Below are positions 30,240-38,038 of a DNA stretch of 42,543 nucleotides, piece after piece; position 1 is the first letter of the stretch; each line of letters begins with the position of its first letter. The notes beneath the pieces are model-generated. The model searched no databases. It saw nothing but the letters and a program-made list of their open reading frames with translations, and was not told the DNA's origin. This stretch comes from Acetobacteraceae bacterium. GTDB lineage: Bacteria > Pseudomonadota > Alphaproteobacteria > Acetobacterales > Acetobacteraceae. The stretch covers positions 1 through 42,543 of the forward strand of contig JAIYDD010000097.1 of the NCBI GenBank assembly GCA_027487675.1, given 5' to 3'. A program made the translations under genes and the position numbers.

Positions 30240-33479
<3,240 letters not shown>

Positions 33480-33484
33480 GTCGG

Positions 33485-33751
33485 TCAGCGGTCCGCCGTG
33501 TTGGATTGGCGCCGCGCCGCGAACAGCAGCAGCGGCAGGATCATCAGATGGGGAATGCCCCAGAAGGCCAGCGCCATCAGCGCCTGTTCCCCCATCAGCA
33601 GCGTCGTCGCGCCATGCACGGCCGATGACAGCGCAAAGGCCGCCAGCGCCGCGCGGAAGGGCGGCAGCACCTTCTTCAGGCTGCCCGCCAGCACGAACAG
33701 CACCAGCCCCGAATAGGCCAGCGCGAAGAGGCCGAGCGCGCCTTCCATCAT
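33485..33751 (-). CDS. Small three-helix membrane protein
   Basis: 88 residues. ATG at 33751 overlaps the LysE stop by four bases (ATGA), and carB begins 5 bp after this gene's stop, so it is held tightly in the operon. Three hydrophobic helices: [20 protein letters not shown] (about 5-23), [20 protein letters not shown] (about 32-51) and [20 protein letters not shown] (about 58-77), ending in a basic tail [11 protein letters not shown] do not recognise the family. Coupling to the exporter upstream suggests an accessory membrane subunit or merely a shared message. Confidence 0.75.
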
Positions 33752-34383
33752 GCCGCGCGGCCCTCCGTCGCCAGCTTCACCGCCAGCAGCGCCAGCGCCG
33801 CGCCCAGCACCCAGCGCTGCACCGCCATCCACATGGGCTTGGTGGACAGGAACCGCGCGGTGCCCGCGGCACCCCAGACCAGCACCGCATCCCAGGCCGT
33901 GCAGACCGCGATCTGCACGAAGCCGAGGAAGACCGCCTGCGCCAGCACGCTGCCGCGATCCGCATCCAGGAAGGGCGGCAGCACCGCCATGTAGAACAGC
34001 GCGACCTTCGGGTTCAGCGCGGCGGTGGCGAAGCCCACCGCGAACAGCCGCCCGCGCGGCTCCCGCGGGAGCGGCCGCGGGCTGAACAGCGGCTGCCCGC
34101 CCGGCCGCACGCATTGCCAGGCGAGGAACAGCAGATAGGCCGCGCCGCCCAGCCGCAGCACGTCCCACGCATAGGGAATGGCCAGCAGCGCCGCCGTTAT
34201 GCCCGCCGCGGCGGCCAGCATGATCGCCAGCGACCCGGCCTGGCAGCCGATCAGCGAGACCATGCCCGCCCCCGTCCCCTGCGCCAGCGCGCGGGAGACG
34301 AGGTAGAGCATGTTCGGCCCCGGCGTGACCGCCAGCCCGAGCGACAGCGCGGCGAAGACCAGGATCGTCTCGGCGGAGGGCAT
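33748..34383 (-). CDS. LysE/RhtB family amino-acid exporter
   Basis: 211 residues from the ATG at 34383, one base after the SDR stop; an ATG nine codons upstream would lie inside the SDR coding sequence. Six-helix exporter fold with [20 protein letters not shown] (the PGP motif, about residues 13-32), [55 protein letters not shown] (NPK motif) and two C-terminal helices. The family exports basic or neutral amino acids and their derivatives. Its place inside the carA-carB interval, where carbamoyl phosphate supplies arginine synthesis, makes arginine, citrulline or a relative an attractive substrate, but that is inference. Confidence 0.92.
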
Positions 34384-34384
34384 G

Positions 34385-35143
34385 TCAGATCGCGACGGCG
34401 TATCCGCCATCCACCGGGATGGCCGTGCCGGTCACGAAGGCCGCGGCGTCGGAGGCGAGGAAGGCCGCGATCCCCTCGAAATCGGCGGGGTCGCCCCAGC
34501 GGCCGGCCGGCGTGCGCGCCAGCACGCGCTCGTTCAGGCCGGGCACCTGCGCGCGCGCGCCGACGGTCAGCGGCGTGTCGATCCAGCCCGGCAGGATGCA
34601 GTTCACCGTGATGCCGTCCGGCGCCCAGGCCACCGCGAGGGATCGCGTCAGCTGCATCACGCCCCCCTTGGAAGCGCCATAGGCCGCCGCGAAGGGCGCG
34701 CCGAACAGCGACAGCATCGACCCGTTGGTGATGACGCGCCCGCGCCCCGAGGCCTTCAGGTGCGGATAGGCCGCGCGCGCCGCGGTGAAGCTGCTGGTCA
34801 GGTTGGTGTCCAGCACATGCCGCCATTCATCGAGGCTCAGCGCCTGCGGCGGCTTGCGCACGCTGGTCCCGGCATTGGCCACCAGGATGTCGAGCCGGCC
34901 GAGGCGCGCCACGGTGGCGTCGACCATCGCTGCCACGGCGTCGGCGTCGGTGACGTCGGCCTCCACGCTGTCGGCCGTGGCGCCCAGCGCGCGCAGCGCC
35001 TCCGCCGCGGCGGCGTTCTTCGCGGCGTCGCGCCCCGCGACCATCACCGCCGCGCCGGCCTTCGCCAGGCCGCGCGCCATGCCGAGGCCGATGCCGGAAT
35101 TGCCGCCGGTGACGAGCGCCACCCGCCCGGTCAGGTCGAACAT
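34385..35143 (-). CDS. SDR family oxidoreductase (classical)
   Basis: 252 residues from the ATG at 35143, preceded by AGGAAGG. Motifs: TGGNSGIGLGMARGL (Rossmann glycines, about 12-26), ILVANAGTS (about 87-95), then NGSMLS (Ser) and YGASKGGVMQLT (catalytic Tyr/Lys, about 155-166), LPGWIDTPLT and the C-terminal VDGGYAVAI. Probably oxidises or reduces a sugar, sterol-like or hydroxyacid substrate; nothing in the sequence fixes it. It has no evident tie to carbamoyl-phosphate metabolism, which makes its position between carA and carB unusual. Unrelated in sequence detail to the SDR at the start of the window. Confidence 0.93.
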   Translation of the reverse strand: MFDLTGRVALVTGGNSGIGLGMARGLAKAGAAVMVAGRDAAKNAAAAEALRALGATADSVEADVTDADAVAAMVDATVARLGRLDILVANAGTSVRKPPQALSLDEWRHVLDTNLTSSFTAARAAYPHLKASGRGRVITNGSMLSLFGAPFAAAYGASKGGVMQLTRSLAVAWAPDGITVNCILPGWIDTPLTVGARAQVPGLNERVLARTPAGRWGDPADFEGIAAFLASDAAAFVTGTAIPVDGGYAVAI

Positions 35144-35192
35144 GCTGCCCTTCCTCTCCCTCGCGGGCGCCGCGCCGCCGCGGCCCGCCATG

Positions 35193-35792
35193 TCACCGCG
35201 GCAGGCGCGGCATGCGCCGGCCGAGCTCGGTCAGCCTGAAATGCGTCTCCGCCCGGGTCCGCTCCAGCAGGCCAAGCCGCAGCAGGGAATCCTGGAACCG
35301 CCGCAGCGCCTCGGCCCGCAGCTTGCGCCCGAGGCCGAAATTGCCGAGATGCACGGTCCGGTCGGGTCGCCAGGACAGGTAGTCGTGCAGCTCCGCCCAG
35401 AGGTCGCGCTCGGCCTGGCCGATGCCCGCGCCGGCCAGCAGCCCCGGCAGTTCCGCGGCGAGGGCCTGCGCCTCCGCCTCGGCGGCCTTGACGTGGGCCA
35501 GGAAGCCGGCCTCGGTGATCACGTAGCCGGCCTCGGCGGCGGGCGGCGGCGCGGCGGAGGCGGCCCGCCCGGCCCCGGCCTGCACCAGTTGCACCACGCC
35601 GGCGGCGGCGCCCGCCGGGCGCACCAGGCCCGCGGCGGCCAGGCGCTCCAGCACCTCCAGGATCACCGGCACGGGCAGCGCACGGTTGCAGCCCTCGAAG
35701 ATCGCAGGCAGGGCGACGCAGCGCGCCCCGCTGTCCAGCAGCGCGCGGGTCATGCCCGCCAGCACCGCCCGTTCATGCCTGTCCGTCGCCAT
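35193..35792 (-). CDS. Hypothetical protein with two winged-helix-like segments
   Basis: 199 residues from the ATG at 35792. I do not recognise the family. Two stretches have the rhythm of winged helices: VILEVLERLAAAGLVRP, then after an Ala/Pro-rich insert YVITEAGFLAHV (residues about 43-105); and RRFQDSLLRLGLLERTRAET with FRLTELGRRMPRLP (about 165-199). The region between is helical (about 105-150) with YLSWRPDRTVHLGNFGLGRK. Such an arrangement suggests a DNA-binding or replication-linked protein, but no known domain is certain. It follows carA by 134 bp and precedes the SDR by 49 bp on the same strand. A perfect DnaA-box sequence lies just upstream. Confidence 0.7.
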   Translation of the reverse strand: MATDRHERAVLAGMTRALLDSGARCVALPAIFEGCNRALPVPVILEVLERLAAAGLVRPAGAAAGVVQLVQAGAGRAASAAPPPAAEAGYVITEAGFLAHVKAAEAEAQALAAELPGLLAGAGIGQAERDLWAELHDYLSWRPDRTVHLGNFGLGRKLRAEALRRFQDSLLRLGLLERTRAETHFRLTELGRRMPRLPR

Positions 35793-35822
35793 CCCGCACC
35801 TCGGCAGCCTTCCGGGCGACTG

Positions 35823-35831
35823 TGTGGATAA
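35823..35831 (-). promoter_or_regulatory. Single DnaA-box consensus
   Basis: TTATCCACA on the minus strand matches the strict DnaA consensus in a genome where such AT content is rare. It is 31 bp before the ATG of the winged-helix-like protein gene, between it and carA. A lone box could be regulatory (as at several DnaA-controlled promoters) or chance. Confidence 0.35.
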
Positions 35832-35926
35832 CGCTCCGGCGGAGGGAAGGGGCCGCATCGCGCGTCCCAGGAAGATAAAGGATTCGCAACCTGCGGGCGC
35901 GAACTCCGCCGCCTGGGCCATGGCCG

Positions 35927-37435
35927 TCACGCCGCCGCCTTGTGCCGGGCGATCAGGTCCGTGAAGCGGCGGAACAGGTGGTGGCTGTCGGTCGGGCCCG
36001 GGCTCGCCTCCGGGTGGTACTGCACGCTGAAGGCGGGCCGGGTCGTGCTGGCGATGCCCTCGTTCGAGCCGTCGAACAGGCTGCGATGCGTGACCTCCAC
36101 GCCCTCCGGCAGCGTCGTCTCGTCCACCGCGAAGCCGTGGTTCTGGCTGGTGATCTCGACCCGCCCGCTGCGCAGATCCTTCACCGGCTGGTTGGCGCCG
36201 CGATGGCCGCGGTCCAGCTTGTAGGTCCTGGCCCCCAGGGCGAGGGCCAGCAGCTGGTGGCCAAGACAGATCCCGAACACCGGCACGCCTGTCTCCAGCA
36301 CGCCGCGGATGGCGGGCACGGCGTATGCGCCGGTCGCCGCCGGGTCGCCGGGGCCGTTCGAGAGGAACACGCCATCGGGCTGGTGGCGCAGGATGTCCTC
36401 GGCCGTCGCGGTCGCGGGCACCACCGTCACCGCGCAGCCGGCCGAGGCCAGGCAGCGCAGGATGTTGCGCTTGGCGCCGTAATCCACCGCGACGACCTTG
36501 AAGCGTGGCGCGGTCAGCTTGCCGTAGCTGCCGCCCCAGGCCCATTCGGTCTCGTCCCACTCGTAGGTCTGGCGGGTCGAGACCTCCTTCGCCAGGTCCA
36601 TCCCTTCCAGGCCCGGCCAGGCGGCGGCCTGGGCGACAAGGGCCGCGATGTCGAAGCGGCCATCGGCGGGGAAGGCGAGCACGCCGTTCGGCGCGCCCCC
36701 CTTGGGAGGAAAACCATCGCGGATGCGGGCGGTCAGGGCGCGGGTGTCCACGCCTGCGATGCCGGGCACGCCATGCGACTTCAGCCAATCGTCCAGGTGG
36801 CGCGTGGCGCGGTAGTTGGACGGCTCCGTCACATCCTGCTTGACGATCAGGCCGCGGGCGACGGGGGTGGTGGCCTCGATGTCCTCGGGGTTGGCGCCGA
36901 CATTGCCGATATGGGGGAAGGTGAAGCAGATGGTCTGGCCGGCATAGGACGGGTCGGTCAGCACCTCCTGGTAGCCGGTCATCGAGGTGTTGAAGCAGAT
37001 TTCCGCCACCGTGGTTGCGTTGGCGCCGAAGCCGCGGCCCCAGAACACCGTGCCGTCGGCCAGGACGAGGGCGGCGGTCGCGCCCTCGGGCGCGCGGGAG
37101 GCGATGGCGCCCTCGGGCGCGCGGGGGGCGGTCGCGCCCTCGGGCGCGCGGGAGGTGGGGACGCCCTCGGGCGCGCGGGGGGTCGTCGCAGCTTCGGGGG
37201 CGGGGGCGTGTTCGGGCACCGGGGCGTCCTCCGTGCGGGTCTTGCGGGGGGTGTTGCCGCCTTTCGGCAGGTCGTCGAGCGCGAGGCCGGTGGCCGAGAG
37301 CACGGCCGGCCAGTGCTTCGCCGGGATGGCGCGGGCCTGGCGCCACTTGCGCAGCGCCTCCGTCCCGATGCCGAGCCGCGCCGCCGCGGCCTCCGCGCCG
37401 CCGAGCAGGGCGACGATGTCCTCGACCGTCCGCAT
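35927..37435 (-). CDS. carA: Carbamoyl-phosphate synthetase small subunit with N-terminal HTH domain
   Basis: 502 residues, about 120 more than ordinary CarA. Residues 1-55 ([20 protein letters not shown], then [20 protein letters not shown]) look like a Cro/YdaS-type helix-turn-helix; I recall an NCBI domain named 'carph-isopro' for such N-termini on carbamoyl-phosphate and isopropylmalate enzymes. Residues 56-121 are a linker with four RAPEG 9-residue repeats (87-118). The enzyme runs from about 122: [38 protein letters not shown] (359-365), the nucleophile C390 in [14 protein letters not shown] and the triad partners H474 and E476 in YHPEASPG. No internal Met lies between the HTH and the enzyme, so the extension is translated. 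Divergent from the yqeY gene; AAGG six bases upstream may be the ribosome site. Confidence 0.95.
37080..37214. repeat. 27-bp minisatellite within carA
   Basis: Four 27-bp units start at 37080, 37107, 37134 and 37161, with a degenerate fifth from 37188. Each contains GCGCCC-TC-GGGCGC, a perfect stem. Read in the carA frame they give the 9-residue repeat (S/P)RAPEG(A/V)xx that forms the linker between the HTH and the enzyme. Because the period is a multiple of three, copy-number change would alter linker length without breaking the frame. Confidence 0.9.
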
Positions 37436-37442
37436 GGCCGCC

Positions 37443-37471
37443 CTTATGTGGGAAAAAACTTCCCAAGTCCA
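37443..37471 (-). promoter_or_regulatory. Candidate carA promoter with operator O1 in the spacer
   Basis: On the minus strand TGGACT (37471-37466) and CATAAG (37448-37443), each 4 of 6 to consensus, are 17 bp apart, and the spacer is exactly operator O1. The -10 box ends seven bases before the ATG, so the transcript would be leaderless; alternatively AAGG in the same place acts as a ribosome site and the promoter is further upstream. Confidence 0.4.
37449..37465. promoter_or_regulatory. Operator O1, TGGGAA-N5-TTCCCA
   Basis: A perfect palindrome with 6-bp arms (TGGGAA AAAAC TTCCCA), 14 bp before the carA start codon. It shares arms and spacing with O2, 36 bp away centre to centre. No other copy was noticed in the window. 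The N-terminal HTH of CarA is the natural candidate to bind it. Confidence 0.75.
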
Positions 37472-37484
37472 GTGCAGCGCCGCC

Positions 37485-37501
37485 TGGGAACTAACTTCCC
37501 A
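37485..37501. promoter_or_regulatory. Operator O2, TGGGAA-N5-TTCCCA
   Basis: Second perfect copy (TGGGAA CTAAC TTCCCA); the arms extend to 7 bp with a flanking C/G pair. It lies 75 bp before the GatB/YqeY start and 49 bp before the carA start on the other side, so it could act on both divergent genes. The rest of 37502-37576 shows a weak TGCTAAT (37544-37550) that might be an extended -10 for yqeY. Confidence 0.75.
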
Positions 37502-37576: not shown

Positions 37577-38038
37577 ATGTCCGAAGACCTGCGCACCCGT
37601 TTCACCGCCGCCCTCAAGACCGCGATGCTGGCCAAGGACGCCGCCGCCACCTCCACCGTGCGGATGATCATCGCCAAGCTGAAGGAGGTGGACATCGCCG
37701 CCCGCCCCTCCGGCGTCGAGAAGGTGCCGGACGAGCAGATCGTCGGCATGCTGCGCGGCATGGTGAAGTCGCGGCGGGAGAGCGTGGAGCTCTACCGCCA
37801 GGGCGGCCGCGCCGAGCTGGTGGAGAAGGAGGAAGCCGAGATCGCGGTGATCGAGGGCTTCCTGCCCCAGCAGATGGACGACGCCGCGCTGGCAGCCGCG
37901 GTGGATGCCGCGATCGCCGCGGCCGGTGCCGCCAGCGTCAAGGACATGGGCAAGGTGATGGCGGAGCTGAAGAAGCTCGGCCCCGCGCTCGACATGGCGC
38001 GGGCCAATCCGCTGGTGAAGGCCCGGCTCGCGGGGTAG
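37577..38038 (+). CDS. GatB/YqeY domain protein
   Basis: 153 residues of the YqeY family, a free-standing relative of the tRNA-binding tail of the GatB amidotransferase subunit. Seen: LRTRFTAALKTAMLAKDAAA, then TVRMIIAKLKEVDIAARPSG, DEQIVGMLRGMVKSRRESVE, LYRQGGRAELVEKEEAEIAV, IEGFLPQQMDD and VKDMGKVMAELKKLGPALDM. Strong GAGGAG nine bases before the ATG. In alphaproteobacteria it is usually placed between carA (divergent) and dnaG, as here. Proposed roles concern tRNA-dependent amidation, but the function is not established. First gene of a yqeY-uma2-dnaG-rpoD run. Confidence 0.95.
   Translation: MSEDLRTRFTAALKTAMLAKDAAATSTVRMIIAKLKEVDIAARPSGVEKVPDEQIVGMLRGMVKSRRESVELYRQGGRAELVEKEEAEIAVIEGFLPQQMDDAALAAAVDAAIAAAGAASVKDMGKVMAELKKLGPALDMARANPLVKARLAG

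Follow-up and report, generated by a model that had tools for sequence, protein, structure and literature searches.

Carbamoyl phosphate is a precursor of both arginine and pyrimidines. In Escherichia coli, the carAB genes are controlled by ArgR, PurR, RutR, IHF and the trigger enzyme PepA, as described in the excerpts of PMC6245113 considered here. Some enzymes are already known to act as repressors of their own genes by means of a DNA-binding domain fused to them, an example being the trifunctional proline utilisation A (PutA), presented in the available part of PMC5293562 as a metabolic enzyme whose N-terminal DNA-binding domain makes it an autogenous repressor; the case of a carbamoyl-phosphate synthase is apparently new. 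The locus analysed here lies in a stretch of 42,543 nucleotides, hereafter the window, from an Acetobacteraceae bacterium (contig JAIYDD010000097.1 of assembly GCA_027487675.1). In this window, the gene carA encodes a carbamoyl-phosphate synthase small subunit with an N-terminal helix-turn-helix (HTH) domain and is preceded by two copies of a palindrome, named O1 and O2. HTH-CarA is very probably an autogenous repressor of carA, as suggested by the distribution of these palindromes across the family, their covariation with the HTH and their position in the predicted promoter.

The carA gene (35927-37435, minus strand) encodes a protein of 502 amino acids (aa), both parts of which score above their respective cut-offs, TIGR01368 with 450.6 bits (cut-off 307.35) and the carph-isopro model NF046037 with 57.3 bits (cut-off 38). 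The carph-isopro HTH covers residues 4-56 (37268-37426, minus strand), with a predicted recognition helix at residues 25-34 that ends in Gln33-Ala34. The Pfam families YdaS_toxin (PF15943, 20.5 against a gathering cut-off of 30) and P22_Cro (PF14549, 19.1 against 30.2) both stay below threshold. Compared with solved structures, a profile of 36 such HTHs matches the Cro proteins of Xfaso1, N15 and P22 (3bd1, 2hin and 1rzs) with E-values from 6e-4 to 0.015. The predicted model of the domain, with a mean predicted local distance difference test score (pLDDT) of 90.2, comes closest to the Cro proteins of Xfaso1 and N15, the latter also in complex with operator DNA, at template modelling (TM) scores of about 0.7. 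The first eight Foldseek matches of this model have TM scores of 0.61-0.73, and P22 Cro has 0.68; the best matches, N15 and Xfaso1 Cro, reach a probability of 1.00, but the E-values are weak, all above 0.001 with 0.023 as the best. As modelled, the CarA HTH has a Cro-like helical fold.

The palindrome TGGGAA-N5-TTCCCA, in which N5 stands for five variable bases, occurs in two exact copies spaced by 36 bp start to start, O1 at 37449-37465 (TGGGAAAAAACTTCCCA) and O2 at 37485-37501 (TGGGAACTAACTTCCCA), predicted to be the proximal and distal operators, respectively. Both fall within the 141 bp that separate the start of carA (37435, minus strand) from that of the divergent yqeY gene (37577), and this arrangement, already given in the original prediction, was found exact on re-reading. 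The window by itself is a weak test and is merely suggestive since its two matches at up to two mismatches (shuffled mean 0.45) are reached by 6 of 100 shuffles. The whole genome (5.18 Mb) contains only these two exact copies and none of the reversed pattern used as control. At up to two mismatches, 37 matches are found versus 13 for the reversed pattern, so that weaker sites may exist elsewhere in this genome; among the 35 near matches other than O1 and O2, the two with a single mismatch are both inside long open frames. Over 59 relatives including this genome, the exact motif is present in 29 and the reversed control in one. The Acetobacteraceae subset of these (35 genomes, also including this one) has an exact match in 26 genomes, and 31 of its 33 exact copies are located within 500 bp upstream of HTH-encoding carA. 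A wider draw from the family gave the exact motif in 189 of 299 genomes, whereas the reversed control occurred in 17.

The HTH model matches 278 of these 299 family genomes, and the upstream DNA was read for 183 HTH-carA genes of the family, one per genome (batches of 34, 60, 29 and 60), leaving out G076b (L263), which is another protein. Within 200 bp upstream, the GGAA-N5-TTCC core is exact in 177 of the 183 genes (shuffled mean 0.55) and present with at most one mismatch in all of them (shuffled mean 11.05), while 165 have at least two sites at one mismatch (0.4 in shuffles). Five HTH-carA genes without a TGGGAA motif at up to two mismatches were considered as exceptions and rejected as such, since they carry shifted palindromes. 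In contrast, a set of 74 HTH-less carA genes, most of them from Alphaproteobacteria according to their record titles, shows no exact core, a single site at one mismatch in six genes, two such sites in none and the full motif at up to two mismatches in none. This set excludes L091, L092 and L094, whose match includes the HTH, L100, which is too short, and L141 and L165, for which there is no upstream DNA; the motif is present in L091, and its shifted form in L092 and L094. A full CarA without HTH was found in three (G067, G153 and G245) of 25 family genomes rechecked for carA; none has the exact core upstream of carA, and one of the three has the core at one mismatch. The genus g55, one of the two with an HTH-less CarA, includes three other genomes read, all of which retain both HTH and sites. 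The original prediction had asked whether the motif is conserved upstream of carA only where CarA has the HTH and whether it is equally frequent at random genome sites; the answers are yes for the former, with 183 of 183 against no exact core in 74, and no for the latter, the exact copies lying at carA in this genome and, for all but two, in the subset.

The operator sequence also varies with the recognition helix. The half-site can be read as TTCC-x, x being compared with HTH residue 33. Among the 164 genes encoding Gln33, x is mostly C in 155 and G in two, with a tie in seven, whereas it is G in 14 of the 15 Ser33 or Ala33 genes and C in the remaining one. The three Thr33 genes give two C and one tie, and the only His33 gene gives G. 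The association reaches p = 1.3e-17 by Fisher test, kinship being ignored, and an unbiased scan of the HTH columns places residue 33 at the top with a mutual information of 0.342, the next column having 0.195. In a tree built from the catalytic parts of 180 CarA proteins, from which G071, G073 and G126 were left out (frames below 250 aa), four changes from Gln33 to Ser33 or Ala33 are counted, with the operator turning CCGGAA-N5-TTCCGG-like in three, showing no difference in one (G103) and going the opposite way in none. Two of the four changes fall within one 15-member clade, so that a gain followed by a reversal is an alternative history. Acidocella aquatica (L092) likewise has Ala at position 33 and a CCGGAA-type site. 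This covariation of helix and operator is good but not conclusive evidence that the palindromes are read by the HTH of CarA itself. Such a natural paired change of helix and operator offers a direct test of the Cro-type recognition rule.

Read along the carA strand, O1 exactly fills the interval between TGGACT (37471-37466), the predicted -35 box (37466-37471, minus strand), and CATAAG (37448-37443), the predicted -10 box (37443-37448, minus strand), which is followed by seven more bases and then by the ATG at 37435. Each box, predicted from sequence and comparison, agrees with the sigma-70 consensus at four of six positions, and a stricter promoter scan of the window calls no promoter at TGGACT/CATAAG, so that the assignment is drawn from the comparison with relatives. 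Indeed, 112 of the 183 genes have a TTG that begins exactly six bases ahead of the proximal site, whereas each of the ten other tested offsets gives 0-8, and T/C-A-T-A is read after this site over the 183 genes. The proximal operator would therefore occupy all 17 bp of the spacer that separates a -35 of TTG type from a TATA-like -10, and the TTG placement supports the earlier claim that O1 fills the carA promoter spacer. Among the 165 genes in which two sites were chosen, the spacing is 36-41 bp in 135; in the latter, TTG is correctly placed in 96 when the proximal site is read on the strand of carA, versus 0-3 in the other three arrangements. In 152 Gln33 genes, the A+T fraction of N5 is 0.76 at O1 and 0.75 at O2 versus 0.43 in the surrounding 200 bp. 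The start codon follows the proximal site by 11-15 nucleotides in 115 of the 183 genes and by more than 25 in 59. After subtraction of the six nucleotides of the -10 box, only 5-9 are left in the former, and a leaderless mRNA is therefore predicted. The predicted promoter is thus very compact, consisting of a -35 box, an operator as spacer, a -10 box and the start codon.

CarA would then be an enzyme-repressor, or trigger enzyme, of the PutA kind, carrying its own putative DNA-binding domain and having a conserved candidate operator in its own promoter. The original prediction had tied O1, as an operator of the carA promoter, to the HTH of CarA, and this is strengthened by sites that follow the HTH and change with its recognition helix. 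In the proposed mechanism, a pair of CarA HTH domains would bind each palindrome, and binding at O1 would block RNA polymerase. O2, usually located 36-41 bp upstream, would be auxiliary, adding affinity or cooperativity. In this way, the level of CarA would restrict further production of CarA and possibly of CarB. As the predicted leaderless mRNA has no room for a leader-based control, regulation would take place at initiation. A more tentative extension, which we consider rather less likely than its opposite, is that the synthase itself is the sensor, a ligand- or partner-dependent state setting how many HTHs are presented together, so that O1 and O2 would read the pyrimidine/arginine balance without a separate regulator. 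According to the excerpts of PMC6245113, the E. coli enzyme shifts among one, two and four heterodimers with effectors, uridine monophosphate (UMP) favouring the single heterodimer and ornithine the tetramer; such effector-dependent changes are therefore a conceivable means of sensing for HTH-CarA.

Several points weigh against autogenous repression by HTH-CarA. The direction of regulation is deduced from promoter geometry, and the residue-33 counts and mutual information ignore kinship, whereas the sign test on the tree gives p = 0.25, with too few changes to reach 0.05. In G103, Ser33 goes together with an operator mostly of the TTCCCA type, in both G118 and G182 Gln33 goes together with G-type (TTCCGC-type) sites, and the Thr33 genes are mixed. 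HTH-less losses within the family are few (three genomes from two genera). To these are added the excess of near matches in the genome under study (37 versus 13) and the 11 exact copies found in one family genome, G110, none of which is on the contig of carA (C2).

These copies in G110 are scattered over contigs C5, C7, C14, C22, C24, C42, C44, C72, C73 and C86, display only two N5 variants and probably represent a dispersed repeat. They are the argument for seeing the palindromes in general as a product of chance, a dispersed repeat or an RNA hairpin, which has a negligible probability given that the genome under study has its two exact copies at carA, that position and spacing are conserved while N5 varies and that O1 is upstream of the predicted transcription start. 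Chance or a simple repeat was accordingly rejected on the genome count, the promoter geometry and the 183-gene comparison. That a separate transcription factor binds the palindromes, the HTH of CarA having another role, is quite improbable. CarA and the sites are linked through sequence comparison alone and E. coli carAB does have several separate regulators (PMC6245113, in the part considered), but the palindromes accompany the HTH on CarA and vary with its recognition helix, and in this genome their exact form occurs at the carA promoter only; a separate factor would need a single target and the same distribution. Somewhat less remote, though still unlikely, is the idea that HTH-CarA binds the sites and activates or merely tunes transcription, for instance with O2 as an activating site. 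The centre of O2 is about 40 bp from the promoter spacer on its upstream side, where activators can act, and O2 is less conserved than O1, with 1.32 versus 0.74 mean mismatches in the 152 Gln33 genes. Against this idea, most relatives have O1 as their -35/-10 spacer, and HTH proteins bound in such a spacer usually repress, although some spacer binders of the MerR type activate, on longer spacers.

The original prediction had also suggested that control by O2 may reach the divergent genes yqeY, uma2, dnaG and rpoD, which would link the synthesis of nucleotide and arginine precursors to the supply of primase and sigma-70. The yqeY gene (37577-38038, plus strand; Pfam YqeY, 133.4 bits) is found in divergent orientation within 500 bp in 159 of the 183 genes, and its start is at a median of 55 bp from the distal site, so that an overlap with the yqeY promoter may occur in individual genomes. 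However, in the 135 genes with standard spacing, no -35/-10 signature surrounds O2 on either strand, including that of yqeY. For the other 24 genes, yqeY is further off in eight and undetected in 16 (700-1500 bp upstream examined), and two sites are kept in 14 of these 16. Thus, O2 more likely serves carA, and the extension to yqeY, and with it the proposed link to primase and sigma-70, is not supported and has a very low probability, even a little below that of a separate factor; control of yqeY by O2 in individual genomes is possible.

In CarA, an Ala/Pro-rich linker (residues 58-120; 37076-37264, minus strand), delimited from the translation and the domain borders, joins the HTH to the catalytic part, and its repeated units are encoded by GC-rich tandem DNA repeats. 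Downstream, carB (30240-33479, minus strand) is an open reading frame (ORF) for the large subunit, matching TIGR01369 with 1485.6 bits. The carA-carB interval (window positions 30240-37435) includes, on one strand, four small genes named by eye as an ORF, an SDR-like gene, a LysE-like gene and a small membrane protein, and carA and carB possibly belong to one transcription unit. An in-frame reading of at least 250 aa is found in 180 of the 183 HTH-carA genes; in G126 (L185), HTH and CarA core are in different frames, and in G071 (L187) a TAG interrupts the carA frame, by sequencing error or real change.

Outside the carA context, the HTH profile A1 (1e-8) matched 7 of 385 genomes of the class, five belonging to the same family (this genome and four others) and two being weak matches, one in a frame of 554 aa and the other in one of 137 aa; no strong match outside the family was found among these 385 genomes. 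Another search gave four strong HTH matches outside the family (G041, G048, G049 and G050), which were considered as carA fusions and rejected since they are not carA, the carA of G050 being on another contig. Three of the four, once translated, look like membrane coiled-coil proteins, and the motif at up to two mismatches is absent from the upstream DNA examined for all four. At L037, L040 and L054, outside the family, carph-isopro is at the N-terminus of membrane coiled-coil proteins, which we take to be mitofilin/COG4223-like, and no palindrome at up to two mismatches accompanies it. Stand-alone carph-isopro frames of 82-86 aa were observed at G153:C1:2074574-2074711, G160:C17:25246-25383 and G135:C95:23276-23416, G153 combining such a frame with an HTH-less CarA.

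In the open-licence literature, no paper naming the carph-isopro domain and no description of a DNA-binding or autoregulating carbamoyl-phosphate synthase were found, and NCBIfam NF046037, which names the domain matched by the CarA HTH, comes with no stated operator or function that could be found. The closest solved folds are the Cro proteins of N15, Xfaso1 and P22, which are free phage repressors, whereas the CarA domain is part of an enzyme. The biotin ligase BirA also unites enzyme and repressor in one protein, but the enzyme is different and the signal of BirA is known (PMC6391492, in the part available). Like PutA, HTH-CarA is an enzyme with an N-terminal domain predicted to bind DNA, for which autoregulation is predicted; unlike PutA, whose ribbon-helix-helix represses the put regulon (excerpts of PMC5293562), it has an HTH of the Cro-like kind, fused to a subunit of carbamoyl-phosphate synthase. 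In E. coli, transcription of the genes for the same enzyme is also controlled, and partly by an enzyme, but the regulators are separate proteins, and the string "autoregulat" is absent from the text of PMC6245113. One bacterial family seems to have replaced this control by separate proteins with a DNA-binding domain carried on the enzyme itself.
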